Of a stretch of 64,000 nucleotides of DNA, positions 15,299 to 33,406 are shown in pieces. Origin of the DNA: Terriglobus sp. TAA 43. Lineage in GTDB: Bacteria > Acidobacteriota > Terriglobia > Terriglobales > Acidobacteriaceae. The notes under the pieces were generated by a model. The model had not been told where the DNA came from, did not search any database, and worked only from the letters and a program-made list of their open reading frames with translations. The first letter of the stretch is position 1; every line of letters starts with the position of its first letter. The position numbers and the translations under genes were made by a program. Location: the NCBI RefSeq assembly GCF_000800015.1, contig NZ_JUGR01000001.1, positions 2,418,001 through 2,482,000 on the forward strand. The letters run 5' to 3'.

Positions 15299-15553
15299 TT
15301 ACTTAGCCCAGATGCTCGCATTCAGGCACGCCACAACACCGTCAATCACCAGTCCTAGACCACTGGAAAAGCCATCCGCATTGACAATCGTCTTGTTCGC
15401 AACGGCATCCGTCATCTTCACCGCGGCACTCACAATCTCCAACGCGGCACTCTTCTTCTCATCACCAGTCTTCGCCCCATAGACCGACTCAATGCCCTGA
15501 ATCAGACTCGGCAGCACAGCAATCCCGCGCAGAAACAATTTCAAGAAATTCAT
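15299..15553 (-). CDS. Hypothetical protein at the end of the phage-like block (84 aa)
   Basis: An 84-residue protein with an amphipathic/hydrophobic N-terminus (FLKLFLRGIAVLPSLIQGIESVYG), a charged GDEKK turn, and a hydrophobic C-terminal half (GLGLVIDGVVACLNASIW). AGGAGAAG precedes the ATG. It is the last gene of the block; a terminator-like hairpin stands between it and the gene upstream. Small proteins of this kind at the end of phage tail regions are often membrane-associated or holin-like, but no family motif supports a firm call. Confidence 0.6.
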   Translation of the reverse strand: MNFLKLFLRGIAVLPSLIQGIESVYGAKTGDEKKSAALEIVSAAVKMTDAVANKTIVNADGFSSGLGLVIDGVVACLNASIWAK

Positions 15554-15564
15554 CCTCTTCTCCT

Positions 15565-15597
15565 AAAAAATATGAGCCGCCCCATCCGGAGCAGCCC
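15565..15597 (-). terminator. Terminator-like hairpin between the two last small phage-like genes
   Basis: Read on the minus strand, GGGCTGCTCC pairs with GGGGCGGCTC (three G-U pairs) around GGAT, followed shortly by six T. It lies just upstream of the ribosome-binding site of the 84-aa gene. Confidence 0.5.
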
Positions 15598-15624
15598 TTG
15601 TCATCCAAACCTGGTTGTTGCCAA

Positions 15625-15840
15625 CTAACGTCGCATCACATCCAGTGCCACGTGAAACAGCGTCATCAACACACTTAGCGCGCCGCCCACACCCTTCATC
15701 CGTTGCACTGTTCGTTCATGCCGCTCCACACGCTCCTCCAGTAAGCTCAGCCGTCCCGGCTGCCCCACACCTAGCAGCGCATGCATCTGGCTTTTCAGCG
15801 CGCTAAGATCACCCAGGACCTGCGCTTCAAAGTCCGTCAT
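15625..15840 (-). CDS. Small coiled-coil plus TM protein, XhlA/holin-associated-like (71 aa)
   Basis: A 71-residue protein starting at ATG 15840 behind a strong AAGGAGG; the frame runs 12 codons further but without a better site. Residues 1-50 predict a helical coiled coil (ALKSQMHALLG, RLSLLEERVERHERTVQRMKG) and the last 20 form a hydrophobic helix (GALSVLMTLFHVALDVMRR). This architecture is that of XhlA-type phage lysis accessory proteins, which support a holin. No endolysin gene is found nearby, so the assignment rests on shape alone. Confidence 0.5.
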   Translation of the reverse strand: MTDFEAQVLGDLSALKSQMHALLGVGQPGRLSLLEERVERHERTVQRMKGVGGALSVLMTLFHVALDVMRR

Positions 15841-15881
15841 TGCAATCCTCCTTCGCCCACGCGGAATATCCGGCACATCGC

Positions 15882-17984
15882 CTAACTCACCGGCAGGCTC
15901 GTCAACACAACACTCGATACAGCGGAGTATTTCGCAGGCACCGAGTTGTCATACATCCGTACAAAAAAGCGCTCGGCAAAAGCCGCACGCGGAATCGAAA
16001 AACCGCGCGCCGCACTGCGCAACACAAGGTCCGACGTCGTCGTCAAACCAAAGTTCGCATCACTCCGCCGCACCTCAAAGCCACAACCATCCGGAGCATC
16101 CACGCCGCTATCCACTTGCAACGCAGCGGTGGTTGCCGCTGTCACCTGCAGACCAGCGAGGCTCACAGGCAACGCAACATCTCTCACCACAGCCACATTC
16201 CCCGGAACATCCGCAGCAAGTCCGTCTCCCACATGGAAATCCAAACTCACATCGCGCCCCTGTCGAAATGCAGCCGTATACGTCACCTGCTCTGGATCGC
16301 AGTTGCCATCCACCATGCGCACACTCTGCACAGGCAGTGTCTGTGTGCCTTCATCACTTGCAATCAGCAACGTGTCGCCCGGCGCCACATCCGCAGCCAA
16401 TGCGGCATTCCGCAACCAGGTCACCGATCCCGAAATCCCCGTTGCAGATCCAGCGGAAAGCGCCAGGAGTGCCTTCGCCGCAGATTCGCAATCCGCCGAA
16501 CTACGCGCCAATGGTGATCGAACTTCGCCTGACCACGCAGGCATACCCGGCAAGCCAAGCGACTCTCTCACGAACTCCGCCGTGTCATCGATCACTCTCG
16601 CAACAGCGCGACCACGGCGACGATAACGCACCGTCACCAACTCGCCCGGTTGTGGCAGAAGTCCCGCAGCAAAAGTCACCACACCCGCAGCACCCACAAC
16701 ATAGTCAGCTCCGCTCGTGGAAACACCCTGCCTGCGCGTCCGCTGCGTTCCATCCGCCGCCGTCGACACCACAAGGCATGATCCAGTGCGCGTTAACGTC
16801 ACACGCCCTACACTGCCGTTCAACGCAACACTGTTCACCGGCGCAAAGACACACTGATACGGCGAAATCGCCATGGCCCCGTCATACAAAACGGTCGGCA
16901 GCGTGCTCGAAGCCAATCCCAGGTCAGCAACTTCAATCACTACATGCATCGGCGCGCCCACCGAATCGCCACCAAACTGCTGCAGGACACCATCCACCAA
17001 CACGCCGTAACGGCTACGAATCCTTTGCATCTCCGCACAATGCAAACGCACACGCAGAACATAACGATGACCATTCGCAAAGTCATAACTCGACGTCTGC
17101 TCCACACCATTCACAATCGCAACCAGTGAATGCGAACCCGCCGTCCCACGCACCCGCACACCGGCGGTGCAATGGTTGCGCGTTGTCGTGCCGTCATAGA
17201 AGCCCAGCAAAACACCATCGCTGCCAGCCGTCAGCATTACATCGCTTGCCTCTGCAACGAGACCGCCCCCAAGCTCAACCGGGGTTTTACTGCTTAGCAG
17301 CGTAGCTCCGTCCGCCCCTGTCCCACCGTTCATGCGAAGACCGCCACTGCCCAGAGACAGATAGCTCGCCACATCCACCCGCGACCAGACATTCGAATCG
17401 AACACGCTACCATCGAATGCATCATCCAGCAGTGTGTCGTTCCCACTCTCGCGGAACGGCGCGTGTTGCAGAGCGAAACTAGCTGTCGCACCATCACCGC
17501 GAAACAGCTCGGTGACATACTGCGTCGGTTCATACTCACCGCTCACCATCACGTCCTGCGCCAGGTCTGAGAATAAGGAAGACGTCGCGTCCATCTTCAA
17601 TGTCACGTCGTGCAGGGCCATTGCGTGTTGCATCGACGTTGCAGGCTGCAACGCATCAGAAGGGGAACCCTGTGTGAGCCACGCCATCTCCACTGCCCGA
17701 AGCACCACGCAATCATCAGAACCGTTCGTTCCTGCCATCGCGCAAGATGCTCTCGATGTGGCTTCCAAAATTCCATGAAATAACACGGCCCCTGAAGAAT
17801 CGAGAACTCGCATCTGCGAGCGACTCTGCGGCATCACCAGGCCACTCCCCGCCAAATCCAACCCGGCCGAACACACCGTCCATTTCCCGCGATTTCGAGT
17901 AATTTCCAACGGCATATCTGTACGCACCGCCGGTGTGTAATCCACTTCACCCGCACCATCGTTGTTATCAATCCGCAGAATCAT
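15882..17984 (-). CDS. Large tail/baseplate-like protein with LamG-like insert
   Basis: A 700-residue protein. The N-terminus (EITRNRGKWTVCSAGLDLAG, MRVLDSSGAVLFHGILE) resembles baseplate-hub style beta domains. Residues about 175-340 read as a concanavalin/LamG-like sandwich (DDAFDGSVFDSNVW, LGFYDGTTTRNH, HRYVLRVRLHC), a fold often used for glycan binding. The C-terminal 100 residues look like a fibronectin-III-type unit ending in FFVRMYDNSVPAKYSAVSSV. GGAGAGG precedes the ATG. It lies downstream of the tail-tube-like gene, the usual place for tail-tip proteins, but no tape measure intervenes. Assigned by position and domain pattern only. Confidence 0.5.
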   Translation of the reverse strand: MILRIDNNDGAGEVDYTPAVRTDMPLEITRNRGKWTVCSAGLDLAGSGLVMPQSRSQMRVLDSSGAVLFHGILEATSRASCAMAGTNGSDDCVVLRAVEMAWLTQGSPSDALQPATSMQHAMALHDVTLKMDATSSLFSDLAQDVMVSGEYEPTQYVTELFRGDGATASFALQHAPFRESGNDTLLDDAFDGSVFDSNVWSRVDVASYLSLGSGGLRMNGGTGADGATLLSSKTPVELGGGLVAEASDVMLTAGSDGVLLGFYDGTTTRNHCTAGVRVRGTAGSHSLVAIVNGVEQTSSYDFANGHRYVLRVRLHCAEMQRIRSRYGVLVDGVLQQFGGDSVGAPMHVVIEVADLGLASSTLPTVLYDGAMAISPYQCVFAPVNSVALNGSVGRVTLTRTGSCLVVSTAADGTQRTRRQGVSTSGADYVVGAAGVVTFAAGLLPQPGELVTVRYRRRGRAVARVIDDTAEFVRESLGLPGMPAWSGEVRSPLARSSADCESAAKALLALSAGSATGISGSVTWLRNAALAADVAPGDTLLIASDEGTQTLPVQSVRMVDGNCDPEQVTYTAAFRQGRDVSLDFHVGDGLAADVPGNVAVVRDVALPVSLAGLQVTAATTAALQVDSGVDAPDGCGFEVRRSDANFGLTTTSDLVLRSAARGFSIPRAAFAERFFVRMYDNSVPAKYSAVSSVVLTSLPVS

Positions 17985-17993
17985 GCCTCTCCT

Positions 17994-18962
17994 TTACACG
18001 CGTCGCATCGCCGCAGGTAGATAACTTCGAAAACTAACCGCGCCCACACCATCCACTGCATCGACCACCGGCAACGCACGCATACGTGCCACGGGTCGCC
18101 ATCGCGCAACGCCCTTCGCAATCTCCAACGCATTTTCCGCAGCGCCTTCACCAGCGGGTTGCAACCTCGGATAATGCAGAATCAAACGATCGCCTTGAAA
18201 TCCATCCACAACAAACAGCGCCGACCATTCCTGCGCGAAACTACCGCCGTTGCGATCGACAAATCCCACAACAATAGAAACCTTCGTGCCTGGATCGGGT
18301 ACTCCATCAGGCAGCGCCGAAGCCAGTGTGACCACACCTGCGTCCACACTCAGCACACGCGCGACGTTGAAGCTCACTCGGCGGATAAAATCCACATCCG
18401 GTATCTCCGGAACAGTCGCAACATAAGCGCCCGCAACGCCGCTCCCCACATATCCCGTCGCACCGGCATAATCGACGTCCACCACAACAACATCCCCAGG
18501 CTGCACCGCCGTCGTCGAACCAAGTCGCAAGACAGTAGCCGTCGACCCACTGCCAACAACGTCTGCCCCGGCACCCGCGCCACCTGAGGGATTCGCACCA
18601 GCACCCACTGTAGTTTTCAGCAGGTTCATCGCCTGCGTGCCTGCCGATAACGCCACTGCCAACCGCGTCCATCCAGGCAGCAACACCTCAACGACCTCTT
18701 CTACCTTCGATCGCCCTTGCGACTTCACCATCGCAGGCGCACCACTCCAAACAGCCTTCCAACTCTCGCCCGTGTCACGCTTCACGCCGGAGACAACACC
18801 TGCGTCGATCCATCCCGCAGGAGGCGTATCCAGGTTGAATCGCCCCATGGAAGCCGCGTCAAACGCCATCGGAGTACCCGTCGCCCGATCTACAGGCGCA
18901 AAGTACGCACGAATATCTCCGGCAAACAGAGAACCCGCCTCCAACACACTCGTCGAATTCAT
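17994..18962 (-). CDS. Probable phage tail (tube-like) protein
   Basis: A 322-residue, Ala/Gly/Val-rich beta protein. It begins MNSTSVLEAGSLFAGDIRAYF and contains DTGESWKAVWSG and VSGVKRDTGE, in keeping with a major tail protein type N-terminal domain, followed by a Gly/Ala-rich linker (AGANPSGGAGAGADVVGSGS) and a second beta domain. Its ATG overlaps the TGA of the preceding gene (ATGA). The order connector-neck-terminator-tail tube supports the call, but sequence identity to a known family is not evident. Confidence 0.5.
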   Translation of the reverse strand: MNSTSVLEAGSLFAGDIRAYFAPVDRATGTPMAFDAASMGRFNLDTPPAGWIDAGVVSGVKRDTGESWKAVWSGAPAMVKSQGRSKVEEVVEVLLPGWTRLAVALSAGTQAMNLLKTTVGAGANPSGGAGAGADVVGSGSTATVLRLGSTTAVQPGDVVVVDVDYAGATGYVGSGVAGAYVATVPEIPDVDFIRRVSFNVARVLSVDAGVVTLASALPDGVPDPGTKVSIVVGFVDRNGGSFAQEWSALFVVDGFQGDRLILHYPRLQPAGEGAAENALEIAKGVARWRPVARMRALPVVDAVDGVGAVSFRSYLPAAMRRV

Positions 18963-19447
18963 TGCTCTGTCTCCTCCAACGCAAACACAGTCAACTTCGC
19001 CACGCGCTGCAACGTATCACCATCCACCGCAGCCGGCGACGACTCCATCTCTGACCACCAGACACGCGTCGTACACGTCACAACGGAGCTTCCAGAAAAG
19101 TCCTGCAACACCGTAGACCGTGGCTGCAACATCTGCGAGAACTCCGCATCCAGAGCAGCCAGCACACGTCCGCGATCCATGCCCGCCAACTCCTGTGTGC
19201 CACGCGTTGCATAACGCACCTCGCACTGCAATGCATGGAGAGGCAACGGCTCGCTGAGATCAACTACCTCATCCAACCACTGCAGCACAAAACAATCCAT
19301 CGGATCGCTTTGCGCTGGCACAAGCTCCACATCATCCGCAATCACCGCGGGCCGCATCGCACCGCGAATGCTCACAATCCTCGCGGCATTCACTACAGCA
19401 AGACGATCGCGCAACGCCAACAGAAACGTATCCTTCACACTCTGCAT
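18959..19447 (-). CDS. Probable tail-terminator/neck protein
   Basis: A 162-residue protein starting at ATG 19447 with GGAGG upstream; the longer frame to 19498 overlaps the previous gene. It begins SVKDTFLLALRDRLAVVNAAR and contains CFVLQWLDEVVDLSEPLP and CEVRYATRGTQELAGMDRGR, a pattern like phage minor tail/tail-completion proteins. It sits between the head-tail connector genes and the tail-tube-like gene, with two bases to the gene before and a four-base overlap with the gene after. Confidence 0.45.
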   Translation of the reverse strand: MQSVKDTFLLALRDRLAVVNAARIVSIRGAMRPAVIADDVELVPAQSDPMDCFVLQWLDEVVDLSEPLPLHALQCEVRYATRGTQELAGMDRGRVLAALDAEFSQMLQPRSTVLQDFSGSSVVTCTTRVWWSEMESSPAAVDGDTLQRVAKLTVFALEETEQ

Positions 19448-19449
19448 CG

Positions 19450-19848
19450 CTACACCACCTCCGTACCATTCGCAGTCAGCAGCAATCGATATAGGCAAGC
19501 CTCGCTCTTAGCCTTTACACACTCCGTCGCTGTCATGCGATAACGCACATCACCAATCACCACGCCATACACCGCTGTCATCGCAGCCGCGACGGCGCCA
19601 TATCCACGTACACCCAGCCGATCCTCCAGCACATCCGCAGCCACCAGCACTTCCGTGGCATTCTTTGTATTGCGGACCGCAACAGGCGCTAACGACTTCG
19701 CCATGAACTCTGGAGCGCGCAATCCAAGCTGCTCACCGTCATCGCCTGCAACAGGCGGAGCCGGCATCTCCAATCGCGCTGTATCACCACCAACAAACTG
19801 CACCATCGCGCACACAGCTCTGCGCTCTGCCACATACATTCCCTGCAT
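19450..19848 (-). CDS. Hypothetical phage neck protein (132 aa)
   Basis: A 132-residue protein. The ATG at 19848 is taken because it follows the connector stop by five bases; the frame extends to 20010 but inside the connector gene. It contains RRAVCAMVQFVGGDTARLEMP near the start, KSLAPVAVRNTKNATEVLVAADVLEDRLG in the middle, and an Ala-rich end. Gene position suggests a head-closure or neck role. I recognise no motif. Confidence 0.45.
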   Translation of the reverse strand: MQGMYVAERRAVCAMVQFVGGDTARLEMPAPPVAGDDGEQLGLRAPEFMAKSLAPVAVRNTKNATEVLVAADVLEDRLGVRGYGAVAAAMTAVYGVVIGDVRYRMTATECVKAKSEACLYRLLLTANGTEVV

Positions 19849-19853: not shown

Positions 19854-20459
19854 CTACCCTACTCTCTCGGCAACGTACGGCTGCAGCAGCCGCTGCACCT
19901 CTGCGTCCAGCAACGCGCCCTGGAAATACTCCATCTGCATGCCATCCAGAGCCTGACGTTTCACATTCAGAGCAGGCATTGCTTGCGCATTCTTCACAAT
20001 CTGCGCACACGCAATCTTCACCGGCACCGGCACATCAACATAGCCAGACGTATAAGTCACTTCAGCTTCTAAATAAGGCACACCCAGCAGATGAGGCAGC
20101 AGTGTGAATACACCATCCTCACTTACAGTGACAGTGCTTACATCCACATCCACCCATTGCCCCGCAAGACCAAAGGCACACAGCGCTTCAGCCATCGGAA
20201 CACCTGCAACCGCACGCCCCAACCGAACACGCACACTCACCAGTGCGCTCGCAGCACCATTCAATGGTGCAATCGGCAAGAAGCTCAACTGCGCCTCGCA
20301 CCCTCGGCGCAACCGCATGCGCTCCACATACTGCATCACCGCAAGTGAGGTCCGGCGACAGAACGCATCGATCATCGCCGACGCGGCCACCACCAGCTCA
20401 TCCGCGGTATCCTCTCCCAGCCCAAACGTCACATACTCAGCTGCGCTCAGATACTGCAT
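19854..20459 (-). CDS. Head-tail connector-like protein
   Basis: A 201-residue protein from ATG 20459 with AAGGA upstream; an ATG at 20480 lacks a ribosome site. The N-terminus (LSAAEYVTFGLGEDTADELVVAASAMIDAFCRRTSL) is the helical start typical of gp6/HK97-type head-tail connectors, which read out a short DNA-side helix pair. Later parts include YLEAEVTYTSGYVDVPVPVKIACAQIVKNAQA, also usual in this family. It follows the capsid gene with a terminator in the 91-base gap. Confidence 0.65.
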   Translation of the reverse strand: MQYLSAAEYVTFGLGEDTADELVVAASAMIDAFCRRTSLAVMQYVERMRLRRGCEAQLSFLPIAPLNGAASALVSVRVRLGRAVAGVPMAEALCAFGLAGQWVDVDVSTVTVSEDGVFTLLPHLLGVPYLEAEVTYTSGYVDVPVPVKIACAQIVKNAQAMPALNVKRQALDGMQMEYFQGALLDAEVQRLLQPYVAERVG

Positions 20460-20495
20460 CTGTCTCTGTCCTTTCCACATTCAAAACATCGAGAA

Positions 20496-21689: not shown

Positions 21690-22013
21690 CTAAAGCAAGC
21701 CAGCCCTAATCAGGCCGCTCTTCACCGCAATGCGCTGTTCCACACTGAGCGAACGAAACGCCGCATCCATATCTGGACTATCTGCACCTTTCGCCATCAT
21801 CGAAGCCGAAGTCTTACGGCCCGTCGCAGCAGAAGCCTTCACACTGTGCATCTCCCCCATCGCAGACTCCAGCTCACGAATGCGTCGATCCAACTCCGCA
21901 ATCGCTACCTCCTGCGACTCCTCCGCAGTAGCCTCAATCACATCCGGCTGACTTGCTGACTCGCCAACTTGCTCAATCGCCAAGTTTGCCTCTTCCATTT
22001 CACTCTCCCTCAT
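21690..22013 (-). CDS. Small helical protein, scaffold-like (107 aa)
   Basis: A 107-residue protein whose ATG overlaps the stop of the protease gene (ATGA). It is Glu/Ala-rich and helical (MEEANLAIEQVGESASQ, AIAELDRRIRELESAMGEMHSVKA) with a Ser/Thr/Lys-rich middle and a C-terminal helix (FRSLSVEQRIAVKSGLIRAG). Position between protease and capsid, size and composition fit a scaffolding or capsid-assembly protein. No motif proves it. Confidence 0.5.
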   Translation of the reverse strand: MRESEMEEANLAIEQVGESASQPDVIEATAEESQEVAIAELDRRIRELESAMGEMHSVKASAATGRKTSASMMAKGADSPDMDAAFRSLSVEQRIAVKSGLIRAGLL

Positions 22014-22621
22014 CGAGTTCCTTCCTTCACAGCACAACGCCGCACCGGCATCGGCTCCATCGCAGGCGCACGGCGAACACTCTTACGTGCTCCCGTCCTC
22101 GCCGAACACGCCGCCATCTTCTCTCGGACCACGCGAAAGCTGGTATTGCGATAAGCTGCCTTCGTCCGCAGCAGAATCGCCGCGCCCGTAAACGTGGCTT
22201 TCGTCAATCGCCACGTCTCCGCACGCATATCTTCCACATGCGCGTCGGCCAATTCGTAACTCATGCCCAGCGCATCATCACCATGCGCGTGCATCTCCTG
22301 CATCATCTCGGCAAAATCACGCGCAAACAGATATCCGCTCACACGCACGGCATCACCTTCAATTACGGCCGACGTGATGATGCCGCACTTCTGTTTCGCA
22401 TCATGTCCATCCCAACCCGCCTTGAAATCCACCGCCATCCCCAACAGACTTGGCAATGCCGCCTCCGCAGCATCGCGCGTTAACACCACACGATGCCCAC
22501 GCGCACCGCTCGGAGCCTTATCACTCGGCGCGTCCACCCGCGTTAGCACACCTTCAAACGGCACACGGTTCGGATGCCCCATTACCGCCGGAAACTCCAC
22601 AGCCATTCCCTGAAGCTGCAC
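22010..22621 (-). CDS. Prohead protease-like protein
   Basis: A 203-residue protein. GTG at 22621 with AAGGAGG upstream is preferred; the frame extends to 22660 through a TTG. It has the prohead-protease-type core: GVLTRVDAPSDKAP, FKAGWDGHDAKQKCGIIT (candidate catalytic His), and GMSYELADAHVEDMRAETW followed by RLTKATFTGAAIL. These proteases cleave the scaffold/capsid delta domain during maturation. Placed directly between portal and the small scaffold-like gene, as in HK97-type heads. Confidence 0.7.
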   Translation of the reverse strand: MQLQGMAVEFPAVMGHPNRVPFEGVLTRVDAPSDKAPSGARGHRVVLTRDAAEAALPSLLGMAVDFKAGWDGHDAKQKCGIITSAVIEGDAVRVSGYLFARDFAEMMQEMHAHGDDALGMSYELADAHVEDMRAETWRLTKATFTGAAILLRTKAAYRNTSFRVVREKMAACSARTGARKSVRRAPAMEPMPVRRCAVKEGTR

Positions 22622-22669
22622 CTTCCCTCCTTTCAGCAACCACTCACATAACCTCAACAACCAGGCTCA

Positions 22670-23890: not shown

Positions 23891-23914
23891 GCCCACCTCC
23901 TCGTCACCCAAAAC

Positions 23915-23965: not shown

Positions 23966-24277
23966 CTACTGGCTCAACACCTTCACGTGATCCACAAGCA
24001 CATGCAACGACATCTTAAGTTCCTGGAGACTAAGCCGGATGCCATACACATTGTTGATGTTTTCGATCAGCACCTCAGGATCAGCCATTGAGCAATCGAG
24101 GATTGAAGCTTCGTCTGATATCCAGTAGCTCTCAATAAACTCGTGTTCCTCCTCGGGGAGTGTCTTCGTCAAAAACGCATCAATCGCCGGTCGGTCTATC
24201 TCTGTATGTGTGTCGACCGCGAAGTCGATGGGCTTACGCTTATCGAACCTTCCGAAAAGTCTCTTGAGGCTGATCAC
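23966..24277 (-). CDS. Hypothetical protein of the kinase module (103 aa)
   Basis: A 103-residue soluble protein starting at ATG 24277, which overlaps the DUF3037 stop (ATGA). It begins ISLKRLFGRFDKRKPIDFAV and has an acidic middle (KTLPEEEHEFIESYWISDEASILDC) and a helical end (LQELKMSLHVLVDHVKVLSQ). No family recognised. Coupling to DUF3037 and the HipA-like gene suggests a third member of the same functional unit, ended by the terminator that follows. Confidence 0.6.
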   Translation of the reverse strand: MISLKRLFGRFDKRKPIDFAVDTHTEIDRPAIDAFLTKTLPEEEHEFIESYWISDEASILDCSMADPEVLIENINNVYGIRLSLQELKMSLHVLVDHVKVLSQ

Positions 24278-26022: not shown

Positions 26023-27459
26023 CTAAGCTATCCTCGCGCGTACAGCCTGCGCAATTGCCATACTCATCACCAGGTCATCATGACAGCCGACCGCAGCCGC
26101 AGGCCGCCCGCGTTCATCCACAACAAAGCTCCGCATCTCCGCCAACAGCCGCTCACCTTGGAACAACGACCGAGAAGAAGACAACAACACCGCCAACGCG
26201 CTCAACATCCGCGGTCGCGAAGCAACATCCGTCAACCACCCCGGCAACCCATCGCGATCCACAAACACATTCGCGCCACGTTCCTGCTCCAGATAAGCCA
26301 GCACCGCAGCCCCATGATTGTTCCGTTCCACTACGAGCATCGCGCCGTTATACTCATGCGCAATCTCCGCTGCCGCCTTGGCCAGATCACGCGGAGACAT
26401 CTTCATCTGCAACTCCGCGCACTGCATTCCTGTGGCAATATCCACTACCTGCACTGCGCTATAGTCGCCTCCACTGCCACCGCCTGCGACATCCACCGCA
26501 GCAATATACCTGCGACCAGGCACCGCAGGCAGCCATACCTGCAGTGCTCCGTTGCGGCGCACATCCATCGGCGCATTCATATCCTTCGCGCAAGCAGCCA
26601 ATGCATCCCGATCGAAGAAGCAATCACCACTCTCGCGGAAGCAGCTAACAGCGTCCTCTGCGAACTCCTGCACACGCATCGCACCAAATCGACGCGCGAG
26701 CTCACGGCGAAACCCAACCTGCTCCGCCGTGAGCCCTTCGCGCTGCACCAGCACCTCTTCCTCCTCCGTGAAGTCCGCAACCCGCGCACCCACATACGCC
26801 GGCTCATACCACCACGGAAAGAAGTGCCGCACCATCCCGCTCGTCTCCGCCTGCTGCCACTGCTCATAGAAGCAGCCATACGCACCATTCGGAGTACTCT
26901 CTAACACCAGCTCACCGCCCGGCGCCAACGCCGCACGCAGCCCCGCCAATGTTTCCGACGAATCGCCCTGCCATCGCGCCATCTCGCTACAGTGCAGATT
27001 GGTCACACTCAACCCGCGTCCCGCATTCGGCTCCCCTGCACTCGCCACACGAAACTCAGAATCCATCGCGGGGAACGTCATCTGTCGCGCATTCGCACGA
27101 CCACGTTTTCCAATACCCGACTGCAACGGAGTGGGCAGGTTCTCCCACATCCGCTGCACCATCGCAAAGAGGGCTTCCGCACTCTCCTGCGTATTCGCCA
27201 CCATCAACGTCGTTGTCCCCGGAATGAACAACGTTTTCAGCAGAAACCGTCCTGCGATCCAGGTACTCATCCCCATCTGCCGCGCCTTCAGCACAATGTT
27301 TTCCGCATCACGCCGCGCTTCATATCTACGTTGCGCAACATTGGCTCGTAGTGGTTTCAGCAGACCAGAACGATCCCGCACGCACAGCATGTGCTCTGCA
27401 AGGAAGAGCGTGCCCTTTGGCTGTTGCAGCAACGAAGCAAATTCACTCCACTGATCCAT
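26023..27459 (-). CDS. Terminase large subunit
   Basis: A 478-residue packaging motor ATPase/nuclease. The Walker-A-like motif is VLKARQMGMSTWIAG, a variant with no lysine before Ser/Thr; the Walker-B-like region is LHCSEMARW. The coupling motif region is LVLESTPNGAYGCFYEQW. The nuclease domain shows AAVDVAGGGSGGDYSAV, LVVERNNHGAAVL and VGCHDDLVMSMAIA (acidic triad). GGAG lies upstream of the ATG. It follows the fibre-like genes and precedes the kinase module. No clear small subunit is adjacent, though the 127-aa gene at 31798 is a candidate. Confidence 0.9.
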   Translation of the reverse strand: MDQWSEFASLLQQPKGTLFLAEHMLCVRDRSGLLKPLRANVAQRRYEARRDAENIVLKARQMGMSTWIAGRFLLKTLFIPGTTTLMVANTQESAEALFAMVQRMWENLPTPLQSGIGKRGRANARQMTFPAMDSEFRVASAGEPNAGRGLSVTNLHCSEMARWQGDSSETLAGLRAALAPGGELVLESTPNGAYGCFYEQWQQAETSGMVRHFFPWWYEPAYVGARVADFTEEEEVLVQREGLTAEQVGFRRELARRFGAMRVQEFAEDAVSCFRESGDCFFDRDALAACAKDMNAPMDVRRNGALQVWLPAVPGRRYIAAVDVAGGGSGGDYSAVQVVDIATGMQCAELQMKMSPRDLAKAAAEIAHEYNGAMLVVERNNHGAAVLAYLEQERGANVFVDRDGLPGWLTDVASRPRMLSALAVLLSSSRSLFQGERLLAEMRSFVVDERGRPAAAVGCHDDLVMSMAIAQAVRARIA

Positions 27460-27480: not shown

Positions 27481-28527
27481 TCAGAAAGCGCTCAATGCAG
27501 CGCGCGACCACGTATTCGCCGCGCGGCACACATACAGATAGCTCGCGTCCCACGCCACGGTGCCCGTTGTACAAGTCGCACTGGACGACGCCGGCGTGTA
27601 CAGAGGTGCGTTGAATCCGCCCGACGTTGCACTGCTGTTCACGACTTCGTTAAACATCGCTGAAACAGGCGCAATGCCGTTACGTGTAACGGTCAGCCAC
27701 GAATTCGCACTACTGTTCGCATCGTTCACCATGCGGAACATCAGCGTGTTGGTGCCTGCGAGCGCATCCCACAATTTGGCATTCGCTGCGCCACCCGATG
27801 TCTCCCACCCAATCTGTCCACCGCCAGCAGCAGACGCAAGAAACTGAAAGGTCGTCGGACAGGTCACAGACGCTCCGAGCTGCAATCCTGCGCACAACAC
27901 GGATCCCCCACTCAAACCGGCCTTGCCAGATGCCTGGATTGTTGTGAACGATCCGGTGCTTTGCGCCGTAGCACCAATCGACGTTCCGTTGATCGAACCC
28001 CCTGTAATCGCCACGGCAGAACTTACCGCAGGAACGGAAGCCACCGCAGACCACGCGCCCGTGGAAGGATCGCAATAGTAGTACTGAGATTGGGTGCCCG
28101 AGCAAACCAGCGCACGTCCCTGCGTCGCTGTCGCCGCCACAATCTGGCCCAACGCATTCGTCGCAGCGATTCCAGCGGTCGTCGGAACACTTGCTCCATT
28201 CACTCCCGTGACAGTGGAAGTTGCAACGCCTGCCGCCTTCGTCACATCTCCTGTAATTGCGGACATGCGTGCTGCTGGCAATGTCCCACTCGAGATGTTT
28301 GCAGCATTGGTAGTGTCAGTCGTAGCAGAAGCAGCAAACGCGACTCCATTGGTCTTGGTGCAGGTCGCCACACCATTGCTTGCTACGCTGCAATCGCCAC
28401 TCATCAGCGGCGCCACACCAGTTGTCTGTCCATGGACTCCGGCGGCGAACAGTCCCGCAAATAAAAGAGGCAGCCATTTGGCTGCCCCTCTCACCGTGTT
28501 GCGTGTATCGATATTTCGTTTACTCAT
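27481..28527 (-). CDS. Fibre-like protein with signal peptide (348 aa)
   Basis: A 348-residue, Ser/Thr/Ala/Gly-rich protein. The N-terminus has a Sec-type signal (KWLPLLFAGLFAAGVHGQ). The body has tail-fibre-like units (NISSGTLPAARMSAITGDVT, GVATSTVTGVNGASV) and a CDPSTGAWSAVAS-type stretch, then a beta-rich C-terminus ending in WDASYLYVCRAANTWSRA. Its ATG overlaps the stop of the larger fibre gene by eight bases, so translation is coupled. A terminator-like hairpin lies within its signal-peptide codons. A structural tail fibre is not expected to be exported, so its role (surface adhesin versus fibre) is unresolved. Confidence 0.6.
   Translation of the reverse strand: MSKRNIDTRNTVRGAAKWLPLLFAGLFAAGVHGQTTGVAPLMSGDCSVASNGVATCTKTNGVAFAASATTDTTNAANISSGTLPAARMSAITGDVTKAAGVATSTVTGVNGASVPTTAGIAATNALGQIVAATATQGRALVCSGTQSQYYYCDPSTGAWSAVASVPAVSSAVAITGGSINGTSIGATAQSTGSFTTIQASGKAGLSGGSVLCAGLQLGASVTCPTTFQFLASAAGGGQIGWETSGGAANAKLWDALAGTNTLMFRMVNDANSSANSWLTVTRNGIAPVSAMFNEVVNSSATSGGFNAPLYTPASSSATCTTGTVAWDASYLYVCRAANTWSRAALSAF
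28461..28494 (-). terminator. Terminator-like hairpin within signal-peptide codons
   Basis: On the minus strand GAGGGGCAGCC pairs with GGCTGCCTC-type bases around AAAT and is followed by TTTTATT. It lies inside the first 25 codons of the 348-aa gene, after the stop of the large fibre gene, so it would act as an attenuator. Confidence 0.55.
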
Positions 28528-31500
28528 TAATCGCTCCAGGATTCAAAAGCGTGACCCCATCGGTATCCACTACCAGTTGTTGCACAAGATACTTACCTGC
28601 CTGGGTATAACCTGCTGCGCCGCTCGTGCCGTTGGTCACAAACCCTCCATGCACTTGCGATGACCACGCCACCGTATATCCCGGGGTACTACCCACTTGG
28701 AAGATCAGCGTTATGCGTTGCCCCGCCGTTAAACCAGTGAACGTCTCGTTCGTCACGTTTCCTGTCAACGGCATGTGAAACGTTGCATTAGCGCAAGTCA
28801 CAGCGAAGGTCGGATTTGCACTATAGGACACGTTGCTCGCACAAATACCCGCATTTGCCGGCAAACGTGCAGGATCCAGCGTTCCACTCGTCAAATCACT
28901 TGCGCTACCACTCGTCGCCACATTCGCCAGCACCGAGCTGGAGGCCATTGGTCCCAAGGTCACGCCACCCACATCAGAAGCGGTCGCTGTTTGCATGCCA
29001 TTGATGCGCGAAACATTCAGTGTCGTCGCGTTAATCGTTCCTGCAGTCAGACCCGTCGGGGAGATGACATACGGTGTCCCACGCATCGAGAACGTTAGCG
29101 TCGAAGTCGACGGTGAATAGTTCACCGTATCCGCACCAGCGCTGCTCTGCAGGTTCAGCAAACTAAAGGTGGAGTTCCAGTTCGCACATCCATGCGAATT
29201 GCAACGCACATGAATAGCGGATGTCTCGCCCGCCTGCATGTCTAATGCATCAGTCCAAACGCCTTTCACCTGCAACGCAGCCTGCGGAGGTATGTGTGTT
29301 CCTCCACTGCCGTAGTACTGGTTTGCATTCGCACTGTTATTTACCATCCATCCGGTAACACCCGCGCCCACGACTCCATCGAACTGAATACCAGCGTGCT
29401 GTTCCAACATGCCACGCGGCATGTACTGTGTGACGAAAGAGACGTCGCTATTCTCACGCAACTGGAAAAAGTGCGGTTGCTCCACGGGATCGCCCGCCGC
29501 CCACGCTACCGTATTCGGTGCAAGAACAAACGTCCCATCCACCGTGTTCGTCGACGCGTTCATCACGCTCAGCACTTCCGCCATCGGATAAAGAACATAG
29601 CCACCATTCTGGTAGCTCGCAGTACCTCCGGAACTCGTCGCGTTGGGTCCCGTCTGTGCATAAGTAAACTGATTCGCTGCTGTCGACGTAATCGCAAACG
29701 TGCCATTGAAACTCGCATCGGTCGCGCCCGCAATGGTGAGCTTCAGACTGTTCAAGTCAGCGGGAAAAGCCGATGCAATGGTCGCGGTCACGACATTGCC
29801 ACTTCTCTGCAACGATGTGATTGTCGAAGTGATATTTGCAAAAGCGCTTGGCCCCTGTTGCTTGCCCAGGTTGGGGGTCGCAAGCGACGAATAGAGAAGC
29901 ATCGTCGGTGTGATCGAACCAATCACCGGGAACAACTGTCGTATCGTGCCCGCCGTATCTGCAGTCTGCTCGATGCCGTAACCACAAAGGCCACCGATTG
30001 CAATCGTCGCTCCGGCAAACTTCGGCTTATTCAGCGTGAGCTGGATGTGGCTACCATCCATCACCGTATACGGCGCCATCTCAAAGCCGTCGGCACTTGC
30101 CGTCCCAAGAGGATCCACAACGCAGGCAATGCCTGACCCCGCAGGCGCATTTGCAGTGTTGGTCGAATATCCTGTGCTCACACCGCTCGTAACGATAGGA
30201 AGCGTCACCGTCCCAGGAGCCATGTTATTGCTCTGCGAAAGCGCCGCCGATGCTGTCGTGAAGAAGGTGCTCAGTGCAAACGATGTCCCACTGAACTGCA
30301 CTGAGGAATGTACGGTATTCGAACCCTGTCCCACAATCAGTCCTGCAGACAGTGTCTTCGATGGCGCCTTATCAATCAGATATCGTCCGTCACCCTGTGT
30401 CCCGCCGCCCGTAGTAGCCGTTGTCGTCAACTGCGTCGAACCGCTTGTGCATCCAGTGGCACACGTGCCTGTAAACACGCTCGTGTCTTCCGAAATCTGG
30501 ACGTCGTAAGGATGCGATCCTTCATCACCATCATCACGAACGCCACCGGAGTTGTAGAGATACTGTGAACCCATAAGGCAGTCGCCCACGCCGTAGCAGC
30601 GTTGTTCGCGGCTCTCCAGCACATGCTGCCCCTGCGTATTGTTCCTTCCCTGGATGCTCACCGCACCGTATGTCGTCTTGAAATACGGCGTAACGGTAGA
30701 ACCTTGCAGAAAGGTATTGTTGCCACCGGCGAGAGCATTCGCCGTGATCGAAAGAGCGAACTGATTCGCCAGGTTGAAACCGTTTACCTTTCGAGCAGAC
30801 GCGCCCATCGTCCACGTGGTGTTCAGGCTATGTCCATAGCCACCGCGGGCATTCAGTGTGTACTCGTCGTTGTTATTCAAACGTTGATCGATGACGCGAC
30901 CGCCGTCACGTGTCACCGTCGCTGGCTCAGTGCCGCTATACGACGGATCAGCCACCACGGTGCATGATGTTGAGCAATCGCTGCTTGCAAACGCGTTTGC
31001 AATACCATCAGAAGCACCCTGCGTCTGGTACGACTTCGCATAGACGCTTCCATTGAGCAGATTCACTCGCAGTTGGGTTCCCGCAGGCTGTGTCACCGTC
31101 TGCGTCGCCTGCGGTATAAGCGACACTTTCTGTGCCATCCCCGCCTGCAGGCCAGTTGTTGTCGCGTCCACATAACTCTTCGTCGCGGCCTGCAATCCTG
31201 AAGTCGGATCGCCCGGCAGCACCAAAGCACCGGTCATCGTATCGCCGGTCTTCTGGACGTAGGGCGAAGCATCCTCTGGCACAGCGCCAGTAAGCGCTGC
31301 ACGCGCAATCGCCTGGTCCACATATTGCCTTGACACCGTCTGCATCGCCACGCTGGTCGGCAGCACTGTGTTGCGCACAGCAGTCAACTTAACCGGCGAA
31401 CTATTCACCGGCACCACCCAGTACTCACGGCTCGTCGAGCCATCGTTCAGGTGATACACCACGGTGTAATAGGTGCCTGCCGGAGTCGCCGATACGTTCG

Positions 31501-31780
31501 GTGCCAGCGACACAGTCAACACACCACCCGCACTCAACGTCACGGACGTGCTTCCCTTCGGCACACTCTGCCCTGAGGCAGTTGTGAACGCGGGCCAACT
31601 CACCAGCACCGTTCCCGAAGCCGGAGTTCCATCTGCCTGATACACCGTGTCGCTCACCGTCGTCGTAGCCACCTGCGCCAACGCTCGATGCTCAACTCCC
31701 AGCGCCAACACCAGCCACAGCAGTACCCACGTAGGCGGCCATCCGGCCCGCCACAGGCTTCCGCTTGATCTCTCGCGCAT
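28520..31780 (-). CDS. Large fibre-like protein with signal peptide (1086 aa)
   Basis: A 1086-residue protein starting at ATG 31780, 18 bases after the preceding stop; a frame to 31837 overlaps that gene. After a Sec signal (VLLWLVLALGVEHRALAQ) come beta domains (SDTVYQADGTPASGTVLVSW), the SVAMQTVSRQYVDQAIARA motif, ATKSYVDATTTG units, a long beta-rich body with repeated Ser/Thr/Gly/Asn, and a C-terminal GTLDPARLPANAG-type fibre end that folds into a beta cap. The motif set is typical of phage fibre/appendage proteins and of an acidobacterial secreted family. It may recognise a host glycan, but no catalytic motif is evident. Confidence 0.65.
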   Translation of the reverse strand: MRERSSGSLWRAGWPPTWVLLWLVLALGVEHRALAQVATTTVSDTVYQADGTPASGTVLVSWPAFTTASGQSVPKGSTSVTLSAGGVLTVSLAPNVSATPAGTYYTVVYHLNDGSTSREYWVVPVNSSPVKLTAVRNTVLPTSVAMQTVSRQYVDQAIARAALTGAVPEDASPYVQKTGDTMTGALVLPGDPTSGLQAATKSYVDATTTGLQAGMAQKVSLIPQATQTVTQPAGTQLRVNLLNGSVYAKSYQTQGASDGIANAFASSDCSTSCTVVADPSYSGTEPATVTRDGGRVIDQRLNNNDEYTLNARGGYGHSLNTTWTMGASARKVNGFNLANQFALSITANALAGGNNTFLQGSTVTPYFKTTYGAVSIQGRNNTQGQHVLESREQRCYGVGDCLMGSQYLYNSGGVRDDGDEGSHPYDVQISEDTSVFTGTCATGCTSGSTQLTTTATTGGGTQGDGRYLIDKAPSKTLSAGLIVGQGSNTVHSSVQFSGTSFALSTFFTTASAALSQSNNMAPGTVTLPIVTSGVSTGYSTNTANAPAGSGIACVVDPLGTASADGFEMAPYTVMDGSHIQLTLNKPKFAGATIAIGGLCGYGIEQTADTAGTIRQLFPVIGSITPTMLLYSSLATPNLGKQQGPSAFANITSTITSLQRSGNVVTATIASAFPADLNSLKLTIAGATDASFNGTFAITSTAANQFTYAQTGPNATSSGGTASYQNGGYVLYPMAEVLSVMNASTNTVDGTFVLAPNTVAWAAGDPVEQPHFFQLRENSDVSFVTQYMPRGMLEQHAGIQFDGVVGAGVTGWMVNNSANANQYYGSGGTHIPPQAALQVKGVWTDALDMQAGETSAIHVRCNSHGCANWNSTFSLLNLQSSAGADTVNYSPSTSTLTFSMRGTPYVISPTGLTAGTINATTLNVSRINGMQTATASDVGGVTLGPMASSSVLANVATSGSASDLTSGTLDPARLPANAGICASNVSYSANPTFAVTCANATFHMPLTGNVTNETFTGLTAGQRITLIFQVGSTPGYTVAWSSQVHGGFVTNGTSGAAGYTQAGKYLVQQLVVDTDGVTLLNPGAINE

Positions 31781-31797
31781 TCTCACTCTTAGTCTCC

Positions 31798-32181
31798 TCA
31801 ACAATCCCGCTTCAATTCCGTCTCGCGGGCCTCCCACGCTCGGAAGCCCGCCAACATCTTTCGCGCAAACCCTGTCGTCCGCTTACTCCCGGACTGTTCC
31901 GCCCCACCCGTCTCCAGGGCCATCTGCATCAGCAGCTTCAACGACGCCAGATCGCCATCTTGAATCGTCCGTGTCAGCAGCATCGTGCAAATCTGTGGAA
32001 GCGCATCCGCTATCTCGCGCCGAACAAATTTTTGACAACCACTTGGTCTCGGCGCTCGCCGCACTGCAACGATTTCCTTCACCGACGTCACAGAGTCCGA
32101 CTCGGCTGCTTCTGTTTTTCTGCGGACACGACTGCACACCGGTCGCACACTCTTGCCGTTTGCTCTCTTTACCTTCGCCAC
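31798..32181 (-). CDS. Hypothetical protein, candidate small terminase subunit (127 aa)
   Basis: A 127-residue basic protein. GTG at 32181 is taken because the frame beyond it enters the upstream terminator. The N-terminal half is Lys/Arg-rich (VKRANGKSVRPVCSRVRRKTE), the second half helical (FVRREIADALPQICTMLLTRTIQ, DLASLKLLMQMALETGG) with a basic tail. A nucleic-acid-binding role is plausible, and small size plus location in a packaging locus fits a small terminase, but the fibre genes separate it from the large subunit. No motif recognised. Confidence 0.4.
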   Translation of the reverse strand: MAKVKRANGKSVRPVCSRVRRKTEAAESDSVTSVKEIVAVRRAPRPSGCQKFVRREIADALPQICTMLLTRTIQDGDLASLKLLMQMALETGGAEQSGSKRTTGFARKMLAGFRAWEARETELKRDC

Positions 32182-32209
32182 GCTCTCACCAACATCGGGG
32201 AGCCACCAC

Positions 32210-32245
32210 AAAACAAAACACGGAGAACGCAAGCGTTCTCCGTGT
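32210..32245 (-). terminator. Intrinsic terminator after the sigma-like regulator
   Basis: ACACGGAGAACGC and GCGTTCTCCGTGT form a perfect 13-bp stem with a 2-base spacer; on the minus strand it is followed by TTTTGTTTTG. It lies between the regulator stop (32335) and the 127-aa gene. Confidence 0.85.
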
Positions 32246-32334
32246 CCATTACCGCCAGATTTTGACGAGTGTCTCGCAGTGGCTCGGCCCCCGCTTTCTT
32301 TCTCGCCTATTCAGAATAACAATTGGCACGGAAA

Positions 32335-32973
32335 TTACATGCCAACAAATTTTGGCTCGCAACTCTCGTCAGGAGAGTGACTTACCAGCTTCACCGTAGC
32401 CTCGCCCTCTTGACAAGGATCAGAGGCAATTCTTTCCAACAGCTTTTTCCGCAGGAAGATTGAGGTCAGTTCATCCAGCGCCTGGAAGTAACGCCGCTGC
32501 ACCGAACGAAGACTCAAACGGAACATCGACGCCGCTTCTTCCAACGTGTACTCCTGCACGCCGATTCGAAGGATCAACCGCTGCTGTTCCGGCTCCAGCT
32601 CTGCAATGCAGCGATCCACGTCATGGACAAAGATCACCACGTCGTCGAACGCATGCACCCGATAGCTCGTCACCTTGCCACGAAACATCTCGCGACCCAG
32701 CAACGAAGGCACACGCCCGCTCTCCATCGACAGCACACCGTAGCGTCGAAGCATCGCCTCGGTGTACGACCGGTAGAAAGCCGTGCCCGGTGCCAACAGT
32801 TTGCGGAACACAGGAGCTGCGCGCTCCTCCTCCGTCTGCTGCGCCACTGGAGCCGGAGCCACCGCATGCGCAAGAGCCCCGTCCGTCGCCCAAACATGCG
32901 TGAGAACGTTCTGCTGTTCGTCCGCGCCAACACCCATCGACTGCCTCTTGCTTGGCATCTGCAGAAGCTTCAT
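32335..32973 (-). CDS. Sigma-70 region-4-like transcription regulator
   Basis: A 212-residue protein. ATG at 32973 has AAGGGGG upstream and overlaps the stop of the zinc-finger-like gene (ATGA). The C-terminal part matches the helix-turn-helix of sigma region 4 (LEPEQQRLILRIGVQEYTLE then AASMFRLSLRSVQRRYFQAL), preceded by a helical region (DVVIFVHDVDRCIAEL) that could be a partial region 2. The N-terminal 90 residues are unassigned. Located at the head of the phage-like block, it is a natural candidate to activate the downstream genes, as phage late regulators do. Whether it replaces a sigma factor or modulates one is not shown. Confidence 0.7.
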   Translation of the reverse strand: MKLLQMPSKRQSMGVGADEQQNVLTHVWATDGALAHAVAPAPVAQQTEEERAAPVFRKLLAPGTAFYRSYTEAMLRRYGVLSMESGRVPSLLGREMFRGKVTSYRVHAFDDVVIFVHDVDRCIAELEPEQQRLILRIGVQEYTLEEAASMFRLSLRSVQRRYFQALDELTSIFLRKKLLERIASDPCQEGEATVKLVSHSPDESCEPKFVGM

Positions 32974-33170
32974 GCTGCACCCCCTTGTTTGTTTGTCTGC
33001 ACCATTCGCGAGGCCCGGCACGGCCGTCCCGGACGCAGCTTTCGCCGCGCTGGAAGTTCGGCCATTCGGGGGGTGCAATGCCGGCAGTAGACGCCTGCAG
33101 CCACTCCAGTGCGGACCCAAAGTCCTCCGCACCCCTCACACACCTTCAAGTCCCTGCGCAAGTAATTCAT
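32970..33170 (-). CDS. Small zinc-ribbon-like protein (66 aa)
   Basis: A 66-residue protein with two CxxC pairs (CEGC at about residues 11-14 and CRHC at 29-32), a spacing suited to a zinc ribbon, then a basic tail (RRKLRPGRPCRASR). Its stop overlaps the start of the sigma-like regulator and its start overlaps the stop of the 42-aa gene, so all three are translationally coupled. DNA or RNA polymerase binding is an inference from the ribbon and neighbour; no named family is recognised. Confidence 0.6.
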   Translation of the reverse strand: MNYLRRDLKVCEGCGGLWVRTGVAAGVYCRHCTPRMAELPARRKLRPGRPCRASRMVQTNKQGGAA

Positions 33171-33295
33171 GCTTCTGTCTCACCTTCATCACCGGTACCC
33201 GCCTCGTTTCTCCAAGGTCGATCTCCGGTCTGTTGTGCCGCGAATGTGGCTGGCTCTCCGGCCAGTCGGCCACCTTCGCAACGGGTTGTCGTCAT
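33167..33295 (-). CDS. Leader micro-protein (42 aa)
   Basis: A 42-residue polar protein. The ATG at 33295 lies five bases after the structured leader element (33301-33349); GGGAGA inside that element could be its ribosome-binding site. It ends in TGA overlapping the ATG of the zinc-ribbon gene. Without that overlap it would not be called. Acidic C-terminus, no motif. It may act mainly as a translated leader. Confidence 0.4.
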   Translation of the reverse strand: MTTTRCEGGRLAGEPATFAAQQTGDRPWRNEAGTGDEGETEA

Positions 33296-33300
33296 ACAGA

Positions 33301-33349
33301 TTTCGCGTCTCCCGGGAGAAGGCATAAGGGGGCTTATGCCCGCGCGAAA
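33301..33349 (-). promoter_or_regulatory. Structured leader RNA, three-way-junction-like
   Basis: An outer stem pairs TTTCGCG (33301-33307) with CGCGAAA (33343-33349). It encloses two inner elements: the palindrome TCTCCCGGGAGA (33308-33319) and the hairpin GGCATAAG/CTTATGCC (33321-33340, GGGG loop). On the minus strand it lies directly before ATG 33295 and contains the GGGAGA that could serve as ribosome-binding site. A separate CCGCAC/GTGCGG stem lies at 33362-33378. Confidence 0.55.
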
Positions 33350-33406
33350 CCCGCAGGTTCTCCGCACATCGTGTGCGGCGTCTCATGGCGTCATGTTGGT
33401 TTTGAG

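Follow-up and report, generated by a model that had tools for sequence, protein, structure and literature searches.

The 64,000-nt stretch of Terriglobus sp. TAA 43 analysed here (NZ_JUGR01000001.1, positions 2,418,001-2,482,000; hereafter the window, whose own positions serve as coordinates below) contains a compact, intact cluster of tailed-phage particle genes. The listing of open reading frames (ORFs) gives 19 locus ORFs, all on the minus strand and running from 33132 down to 15299, between purE (14737-15240) and mltG (33746-34741, plus strand). The G+C content is 0.55-0.59 in the locus and 0.56-0.61 in the flanks. Two sets of relatives are used for comparison: 40-kb regions from 20 other genomes of 20 genera, with G031 belonging to the window's own genus, and 80 loci examined out of 207 relatives in a collection of named genomes. 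The ratios of nonsynonymous to synonymous substitution rates (dN/dS) given gene by gene compare the window with G031.

Features of the locus
32335..33132, minus strand: sigma-70 region 4-like protein (sig), at the 5' end of the locus; Pfam Sigma70_r4_2, E 9.4e-9; dN/dS 0.225
31798..32232, minus strand: small protein, candidate small terminase by position and a short motif seen by eye; dN/dS 0.21
28520..31837, minus strand: tail-fibre-like protein, 1105 aa, with an apparent N-terminal Sec signal peptide
27481..28527, minus strand: second fibre-like protein, 348 aa, with an apparent signal peptide; C-terminus matches tail protein phrog_17312, E 1.8e-7
26023..27459, minus strand: terminase large subunit (TerL); phrog_2, E 5e-31; dN/dS 0.091
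25122..25985, minus strand: HipA-like kinase; Pfam HipA_2, E 6.6e-8; PADLOC PDC-M66A, E 6.5e-7; dN/dS 0.035
24274..25101, minus strand: DUF3037 protein; Pfam DUF3037, E 6.1e-22; PADLOC PDC-M66B, E 2.7e-10; dN/dS 0.041
23966..24277, minus strand: small accessory ORF, with a relative in 1 of 80 named loci (L074)
22670..23911, minus strand: portal protein; PF04860, E 1.6e-48; in 20 of 20 other regions; dN/dS 0.059
22010..22660, minus strand: prohead protease, named by position and conserved H/S; dN/dS 0.039
21690..22037, minus strand: scaffold-like protein by position; by eye like the C-terminus of a fused protease ORF in phage contig L179
20572..21675, minus strand: major capsid protein, named mainly by position; dN/dS 0.041
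19854..20480, minus strand: head-tail adaptor; phrog_442, E 3.2e-16
19450..19848, minus strand: neck protein (g186), head-closure candidate, its start after the adaptor stop placed from relatives; dN/dS 0.36, a figure that takes in a stretch overlapping the adaptor gene
18959..19447, minus strand: tail-completion/terminator candidate by position, its start placed from the alignment
17994..18962, minus strand: tail-tube-like protein, 322 aa; AlphaFold2 and Foldseek; dN/dS 0.123
17985..17993, minus strand: 9-bp junction, in the slot of chaperone/tape-measure-like genes in related phage contigs and a sister lineage
15882..17984, minus strand: probable tail-tip/hub protein, 700 aa, with a lectin-like insert; AlphaFold2 and Foldseek; dN/dS 0.114
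15625..15876, minus strand: putative small holin-like protein with a hydrophobic C-terminal segment; dN/dS 0.059
15299..15553, minus strand: small conserved protein, putative lysis candidate; phrog_36560, E 2.4e-7; dN/dS 0.039

Near-invariant residues are found in TerL (K58, R60, G63, T66, D323, D332, E378, H460, D461 and D462 among 71 sequences) and in the protease (H86 and S134 among 94 sequences), whose sole notable profile match is the portal family phrog_859 (E 5.8e-4). Family support for the capsid is faint, with SU10_MCP (E 0.0078) and phrog_264 "major head protein" (E 0.011) each matched in 1 of 21 members; an ORF of 300-420 aa for the capsid is present in 79 of the 80 named loci. The sigma-70 region 4-like protein is a candidate dedicated activator. 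The candidate small terminase finds no confident family match in Pfam or PHROG, and small ORFs occupy its slot in several other genomes; the holin-like candidate finds no match in PHROG. A search of solved structures with capsid, tail-tube and hub profiles returned nothing at E 5, one further alignment giving a chance match (E 1.1), and Pfam and PHROG scans of the hub and the fibre N-domain gave chance-level matches only.

Pfam and PHROG profile searches recognise no integrase, repressor or replication gene in the locus. The closest phage-integrase domain lies ~0.76 Mb away, no direct repeats bracketing the locus occur among the 20 largest of at least 60 repeat families, and the window has no tRNA genes. 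A PHROG scan of the locus likewise gives no convincing tape-measure or endolysin gene, with weak matches only. The match of a 115-aa ORF to phrog_16889 (E 2.8e-4 over 48 residues) is taken as a coiled-coil artefact and not as a tape measure, and that of a 322-aa ORF to phrog_7887 (E 0.041) as chance and not as an endolysin. These results bear out what an earlier sequence-only reading of the window had described, namely a uniformly oriented structural set with terminase, portal, protease, capsid and connector between purE and mltG, with no integrase, no attachment repeats, no tRNA attachment site, and neither tape measure nor endolysin. Its account of the tail stands as regards the missing tape measure and falls short in overlooking the tail-tube-like protein (17994-18962) and the probable tail-tip/hub (15882-17984); the gene list was also incomplete in leaving out the fibres with apparent signal peptides and the HipA-DUF3037 pair. 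Given both tail proteins, the cluster is not a tailless set but one of tailed-phage type that lacks its tape measure.

Conserved site, distribution and deletion scars
Capsid, portal, protease, adaptor and tail tube are present in all 20 other regions, TerL and the sigma-region-4 gene in 19 (all except G008; in G044 the sigma-region-4 gene lies far away on the opposite strand), and HipA and DUF3037 in 18 (all except G032 and G008). The 3' end is adjoined by purE (8) or an E2 gene (7) in 15 of the 20 regions, and purE/purK or E2-side genes adjoin 31 of the 38 named loci with sufficient flank. Two internal orders occur among the 80 named loci, with the terminase-portal block before the capsid in 47 and after it in 24. 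Compared across relatives, the purE-mltG interval thus shows a shared gene set in a shared neighbourhood (E2, purE/purK and mltG).

Of 150 genomes of the family, 88 have the capsid gene, each in one copy and with 73-93% identity outside the window's own genome, and a 21-row profile finds it in 157 of 249 genomes of the order (G539 as a fragment, G626 with a partial score). It occurs in 35 of 396 genomes of a phylum sample, all 35 in the window's family, nine members of which are among the genomes listed without it; in the class it occurs in 61 of 299, three of these in another family, f91. The 80 named loci come from Acidobacteriaceae, Terriglobia and unplaced Acidobacteria, with the genera Terriglobus, Granulicella, Edaphobacter, Acidipila, Acidobacterium, Bryocella and Silvibacterium; the exceptions are L105, together with L100 and L111, which are assigned to other groups and may be mis-binned. 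No match to the capsid was found in 50,697 phage records, and portal and TerL match phages at less than 31% identity among the matches listed. Strain-specific presence, which the sequence-only reading took to point to an ordinary prophage remnant, is not seen; the locus is family-wide and single-copy.

Among the 31 IMG/VR contigs found to have this capsid, at least 24 (L151-L170, L172-L174 and L181) each have a minimum of three close locus genes and resemble fragments of the host's own locus, so that viral databases hold the element as virus. Three further IMG/VR contigs (L176, L177 and L178; 124, 74 and 214 kb) carry a capsid ~70% identical, with other locus genes unmatched within the 21 kb examined, and L176 has, by eye, the large-phage-like genes polynucleotide kinase, CCA-adding enzyme and RNA ligase. 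In a quick tree, the capsid of these three falls within the locus clade, where it forms a long branch, which suggests that the domesticated locus was the source of a phage's capsid gene.

Genomes lacking the capsid carry traces of the cluster. purE was placed in 15 genomes without the capsid or with a fragment only, of which 13 were searched for locus genes (G600 and G116 were left out). Orthologous purE (68-98%) is found in 9 of these 13, and locus remnants lie at the same place in 8 of the 9; G458 has orthologous purE, yet no locus remnants. In G095, whose MnmG is 97% identical to that of the window, the order is mltG, the last part of the 83-aa holin-like gene (15625..15876), the 84-aa gene (15299..15553) at full length, purE and purK. 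About half of the cluster is kept in each of G539 and G541, small pieces in G450, G504 and G383, and the holin-like small gene (15625..15876) persists in several scars. In G028, G050, G049 and G082, purE is distant (~50%) and no remnants are found there. Since remnants occur in eight of the nine comparable genomes, absence in these cases reflects deletion and not an empty site.

Selection and descent
Against the nearest locus-bearing relative, capsid, portal and TerL show no relaxed selection (dN/dS 0.041, 0.059 and 0.091). In the comparison of the window with G031, the flanking genes give 0.045 (purE), 0.029 (purK) and 0.055 (mltG), and dS is 0.29-0.93 for locus genes (1.7 for the second fibre) and 0.38-0.53 for the flanks. 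Distances of seven locus proteins correlate with those of host MnmG (Mantel r 0.60-0.81; n = 19-21), none of 2000 permutations being as high. A five-protein locus tree of 20 genomes has 8 of 17 splits in common with the MnmG tree, where shuffled labels reach at most 3; the host side of this comparison is one marker, MnmG. We infer one ancestral insertion of the locus.

Tail module without a tape measure
The tail-tube-like protein is modelled by AlphaFold2 with a predicted local distance difference test score (pLDDT) of 91.4. Its top Foldseek matches are phage tail tubes (9n71_A, E 4.2e-11; Chi and YSD1), though with low TM-scores (0.28-0.41 on the query) and a large root-mean-square deviation, and the major tail protein family phrog_476 is matched in 1 of 21 members (E 0.0011). 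The 700-aa protein (pLDDT 87.8) gives weak Foldseek matches to the lambda tail tip 8k35_A (E 5e-5, probability 0.47), to 7aef_q of an extracellular contractile injection system and to lectin folds; among viral models, it matches ConA-lectin and minor tail proteins (best E 5.8e-14, TM 0.20). Its model thus points to a probable tail-tip or hub protein. The gap between the tail-tube and hub genes is at most 1068 bp in all 19 regions in which both genes are seen and at most 183 bp in 39 of 40 named loci, the exception being L104, where 4801 bp house a fibre.

Related phage contigs and a sister lineage keep more in this slot. Phage contigs L179 (capsid 48%) and L180 (capsid 45%) have a similar head order and long ORFs downstream of the adaptor/tail-tube region (908+ aa in L179 and 1192+ aa in L180, both extending beyond the examined sequence), which are labelled tape measures by position, length and N-terminal look; neither HipA nor DUF3037 is matched in their examined DNA. 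The sister family f91, of the same class, has a homologous locus in three genomes (G736, G751 and G849; L287-L291), with HipA and DUF3037 in all three, and G736 and G751, from two genera, share flanking ORFs by eye. In G751 and G849, a 235-aa protein related to an L179 protein (28%, E 1.6e-10) occupies the chaperone slot, and a 420-aa tape-measure-like protein with weak PHROG tape-measure matches (E 0.038-0.63) lies between tail tube and hub. The G736 locus has its match to the 420-aa protein split across two frames, and its TerL is displaced to the other strand.

Searches of the 20 regions and 80 named loci by tblastn with the 235-aa and 420-aa f91 proteins returned nothing, and of six f91 proteins tried, only the 145-aa neck protein matched, once, in L098. 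As for a tape measure supplied in trans, PF10145 is unmatched in the window's genome and matched in 3 of 21 locus-bearing genomes, in 2 of them above the cut-off; this profile is not exhaustive (matches in 7 of 14 control genomes), so that a divergent tape measure elsewhere in the genome is possible. Along with the apparent signal peptides of the fibres and the HipA-DUF3037 pair, a new observation is that the tail-tube-like and probable hub genes adjoin at the point where related phage contigs and the sister lineage keep chaperone/tape-measure-like genes. The series from phage contig (tape-measure-like ORF of at least 900 aa) through sister lineage (420 aa) to Acidobacteriaceae (none) offers a natural experiment on minimal tail length.

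Fibres and apparent export
All 28 main-fibre N-domains found by motif carry a charged, hydrophobic, AxA-like leader, and a similar leader is present on the second fibre of the window and, by eye, on the G751/G849 fibre. Signal peptides were called by a hydrophobic-window cut-off, with charge and AxA-like features judged by eye. The hydrophobic window also fires on control N-termini (12 of 22 sig, 7 of 18 purK, 11 of 71 g186, 10 of 78 adaptor and 8 of 48 HipA) and rarely on capsids (1 of 80) and TerL (3 of 54), so that taken alone it is not specific for signal peptides. The fibre proteins appear to be exported via Sec; such export would mean that they meet the particle outside the cytoplasm or act at the cell surface.

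All 12 locus-bearing genomes searched contain the fibre N-domain, 11 of them in one copy and 1 in two, and it is absent from the three searched genomes in which the locus is wholly or half gone (G095, G128 and G539). It has five matches in IMG/VR, four of them on contigs with the locus capsid. The fibre region varies in length and content between loci. In the sig-TerL region of L054, L058, L064 and L066, additional large ORFs lie beside the fibres; most of them have apparent signal peptides, and some look by eye like secreted beta-helix proteins.

HipA-DUF3037 pair
The HipA-DUF3037 pair sits between terminase and portal, and both halves match PADLOC models. Adjacent genes for a HipA-like kinase and a DUF3037 protein are the mark of HipAD/PDC-M66 systems, and this arrangement is found here; by homology, the kinase would be the toxin half and DUF3037 the antitoxin half of a pair of the PDC-M66/DS-6/HipAD type. 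K32, D135, N140 and D163 of the kinase are near-invariant among 64 sequences. In one such system, deletion of HipA abolished defence and deletion of DUF3037 was toxic (PMC12548924), and a kinase mutation in a HipA-DUF3037-type pair abolished defence (PMC13092281). The likeness to the anti-phage toxin-antitoxin systems HipAD, DS-6 and PDC-M66 consists in the same two domains side by side; in the available descriptions, the published examples are two-gene systems, one beside a retron, whereas the pair described here lies inside a particle operon.

In G128 and G148 (L254 and L256), only the HipA-DUF3037 pair was found beside purE, and other locus genes were not seen. Between these two genomes, the pair gives dN/dS values of 0.054 and 0.035, a purifying selection implying that the pair is probably useful without the particle. 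Probably, the pair acts as a toxin-antitoxin module that keeps the locus stable, ties the making of particles to phage infection or cell arrest, or does both.

Interpretation and alternatives
The best reading, to which a probability of roughly 0.7 is given, is that Acidobacteriaceae have domesticated a set of tailed-phage particle genes and inherit it vertically, as a viriform resembling gene transfer agents (GTAs). Its parts differ in strength: domestication and vertical inheritance of a particle locus are very probable from the comparative evidence, packaging of host DNA is likely, and movement of genes between cells is somewhat favoured. In-place orthology, purifying selection and partly host-congruent trees lend good support to the domesticated particle locus proposed in the sequence-only reading and contradict the small, degraded prophage that it had held in reserve.

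Under the GTA-like reading, the sigma-region-4 protein would switch the operon on in some cells, and protease, scaffold and capsid would build a head. As genes for replication and excision are missing from the locus, the DNA that TerL packs into this head would be the host's. The tail would be formed by the adaptor, neck and tail-tube proteins and the lectin-bearing hub, and would be very short because the tape measure and chaperone are gone. Small membrane proteins would help lysis; the particle would give up its DNA at the recipient envelope or into it, and the cell's own ComEC might assist uptake. ComEC occurs in 29 of 29 genomes, in keepers and losers of the locus alike, and is therefore not discriminating. 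A fuller and distinctly speculative version describes a viriform for gene transfer that does without a tape measure and goes back to the ancestor of Acidobacteriaceae. In this version, HipA-DUF3037, an anti-phage toxin-antitoxin, is a core part of the structural operon and ties particles to infection or arrest, the fibres are Sec-exported instead of joining the particle in the cytoplasm, a cell surface (of donor debris or recipient) supplies binding, and the cell's own uptake machinery receives the DNA in the periplasm.

Three of the six features in the definition of GTAs (PMC9662315) are found by sequence evidence: particle proteins derived from caudoviricetes (portal, TerL and adaptor by profile, together with a tail-tube-like fold), a fully endogenised genome (a shared chromosomal site without mobility genes), and mostly vertical inheritance with co-diversification with the host (Mantel correlations and shared splits against one host marker, and dS like that of the flanks). 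The definition's other three features, mostly random host DNA in the particle, a head too small to take the whole locus and delivery of DNA to other cells, are properties of the particle. Several points weigh against the GTA-like reading. A capsid match is absent from 62 of the 150 genomes sampled in the family and from 92 of the 249 in the order, so that the function is dispensable, and 14 of the 88 capsid matches cross one stop codon, although, judged from open frames of at least 323 aa, these stops probably lie at the N-terminal edge. G039 has a split TerL and G092 a short portal match, the DNA examined for G008 lacks TerL, HipA, DUF3037 and sig, G032 lacks the HipA-DUF3037 pair, and L104 lacks the TerL-to-protease block in the examined DNA. 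In a set of 693 more distant pairs, the median dN/dS rises to 0.15 for the capsid, 0.26 for the portal, 0.31 for TerL and 0.50 for the neck protein; purE (0.19) and purK (0.20) are also raised in these pairs, in which dS is near saturation. Nine of 17 splits differ from the host marker tree, leaving room for some transfer between relatives or tree error. No endolysin gene was found in the PHROG scan of the locus proteins, and a siphovirus-type tail without a tape measure may not eject DNA into a cell.

PBSX kills, and a domesticated particle of this kind, packaging host DNA and killing competitors, is an unlikely explanation. The variable fibres would target, with HipA-DUF3037 or other genes acting as immunity or control. 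Vertical inheritance and purifying selection fit this explanation equally, the variability of the fibre region agrees with it, loss of the tape measure would hamper DNA delivery, and PBSX itself packs 13.4-kb, evenly dispersed chromosomal pieces (PMC12946183). However, the apparent signal peptides are odd for a particle-borne targeting fibre, and no separate toxin cargo is recognised among the locus genes.

Considerably less probable is that the domesticated genes are kept mainly for defence, with HipA-DUF3037 selected and the particle genes serving as sensors, decoys or passengers. The strong selection on the lone pair of G128 and G148 and the anti-phage activity of pairs of this type (PMC12548924, PMC13092281) agree with such a role, but capsid, portal, protease and TerL are selected like the flanking housekeeping genes, with near-invariant catalytic residues, and G032 retains the particle genes without the pair.

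An ordinary prophage has an integrase, attachment repeats and a variable insertion site. A survey with VirSorter and PHASTER listed the same loci as prophages (PMC5900883), yet an ordinary or decaying prophage is very improbable here and is rejected on the shared site across genera, selection, scars instead of empty sites, and dS like that of the flanks; nor is there an integrase nearby, bracketing repeats, or a recognised repressor or replication gene. The pairing of head genes with less than a full tail set recalls capsid-forming phage satellites that borrow helper tails. Such satellites have an integrase/replication module and no tail genes of their own, and with a tail-tube-like fold, a probable hub, no integrase nearby and a shared chromosomal site, this origin has the slightest chance of all.

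Earlier records and comparison with known systems
The locus has been recorded before under other descriptions. Eichorst 2018 (PMC5900883) reported prophage cluster 153 in Terriglobus and others, which by coordinates is this locus for two of six acidobacterial scaffolds, the two compared: T. roseus NC_018014 150-180 kb against L073 154271-175251, and KBS 89 scaffold00005 60-90 kb against L094 59307-80296. The cluster was treated as prophages, and the available portions of that paper do not mention vertical inheritance, scars or tape-measure loss. The locus is also present in L098 (Acidobacteriaceae bacterium KBS 146), a strain reported there as prophage-free. A Tunturi paper of 2025 (PMC11924767) describes a Terriglobales provirus group (ii), related to Koribacter and treated as proviruses, which may overlap this locus. 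In a study of the Sphagnum core virome (PMC12142844), contigs match prophage regions that lack modules for excision and replication; one of the five, a short contig, matches such a region in an Acidobacteriaceae genome, and GTAs are named among the possible fates of cryptic phages; its available text contains neither a GTA claim nor an inheritance analysis, and its Acidobacteriaceae region is possibly this locus. GTAs have also been considered a possible source of non-viral reads in soil (PMC6172770).

No claim of an acidobacterial GTA was found in the literature titles and abstract openings searched, a coverage outside which bioRxiv and most subscription papers fall, and the GTA classification paper (PMC9662315) and a 2026 gut survey (PMC12946183) contain 0 occurrences of Acidobacteria. 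GTAs are recognised in few lineages, and Acidobacteria are a dominant soil phylum. With a capsid match in 59% (88/150) to 63% (157/249) of the sampled genomes, the locus would make capsid-mediated gene exchange in soil directly testable.

Among known systems, the alphaproteobacterial type I GTAs (RcGTA and CcGTA) resemble the locus in their compact, one-direction structural cluster and vertical inheritance (PMC9662315). The CcGTA regulator GafZ has a sigma-factor-like helix-turn-helix (PMC11150451), and a sigma-region-4 protein is encoded here. Unlike RcGTA and CcGTA, this locus has no recognised tape measure or endolysin, includes HipA-DUF3037 in the operon and encodes fibres with apparent signal peptides. 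LypABC of Caulobacter is a CARD-NLR-like immune-type module tied to a GTA (PMC13236601), and the HipA-DUF3037 pair could be the second case of such a tie.

Brachyspira BhGTA/VSH-1, a cluster of 16.3 kb, is similar to the locus in lying outside Alphaproteobacteria and in showing next to no resemblance to known phages (PMC9662315). As described, BhGTA has an endolysin gene, a putative TerL elsewhere and an order not kept across species, whereas here TerL lies inside and the order is largely kept. PBSX of Bacillus subtilis and FpGTA of Faecalibacterium, the latter described as podovirus-like, are chromosomal phage-like elements linked to short, random packaging of host DNA (PMC12946183); they belong to other phyla and, as described, have other gene sets.

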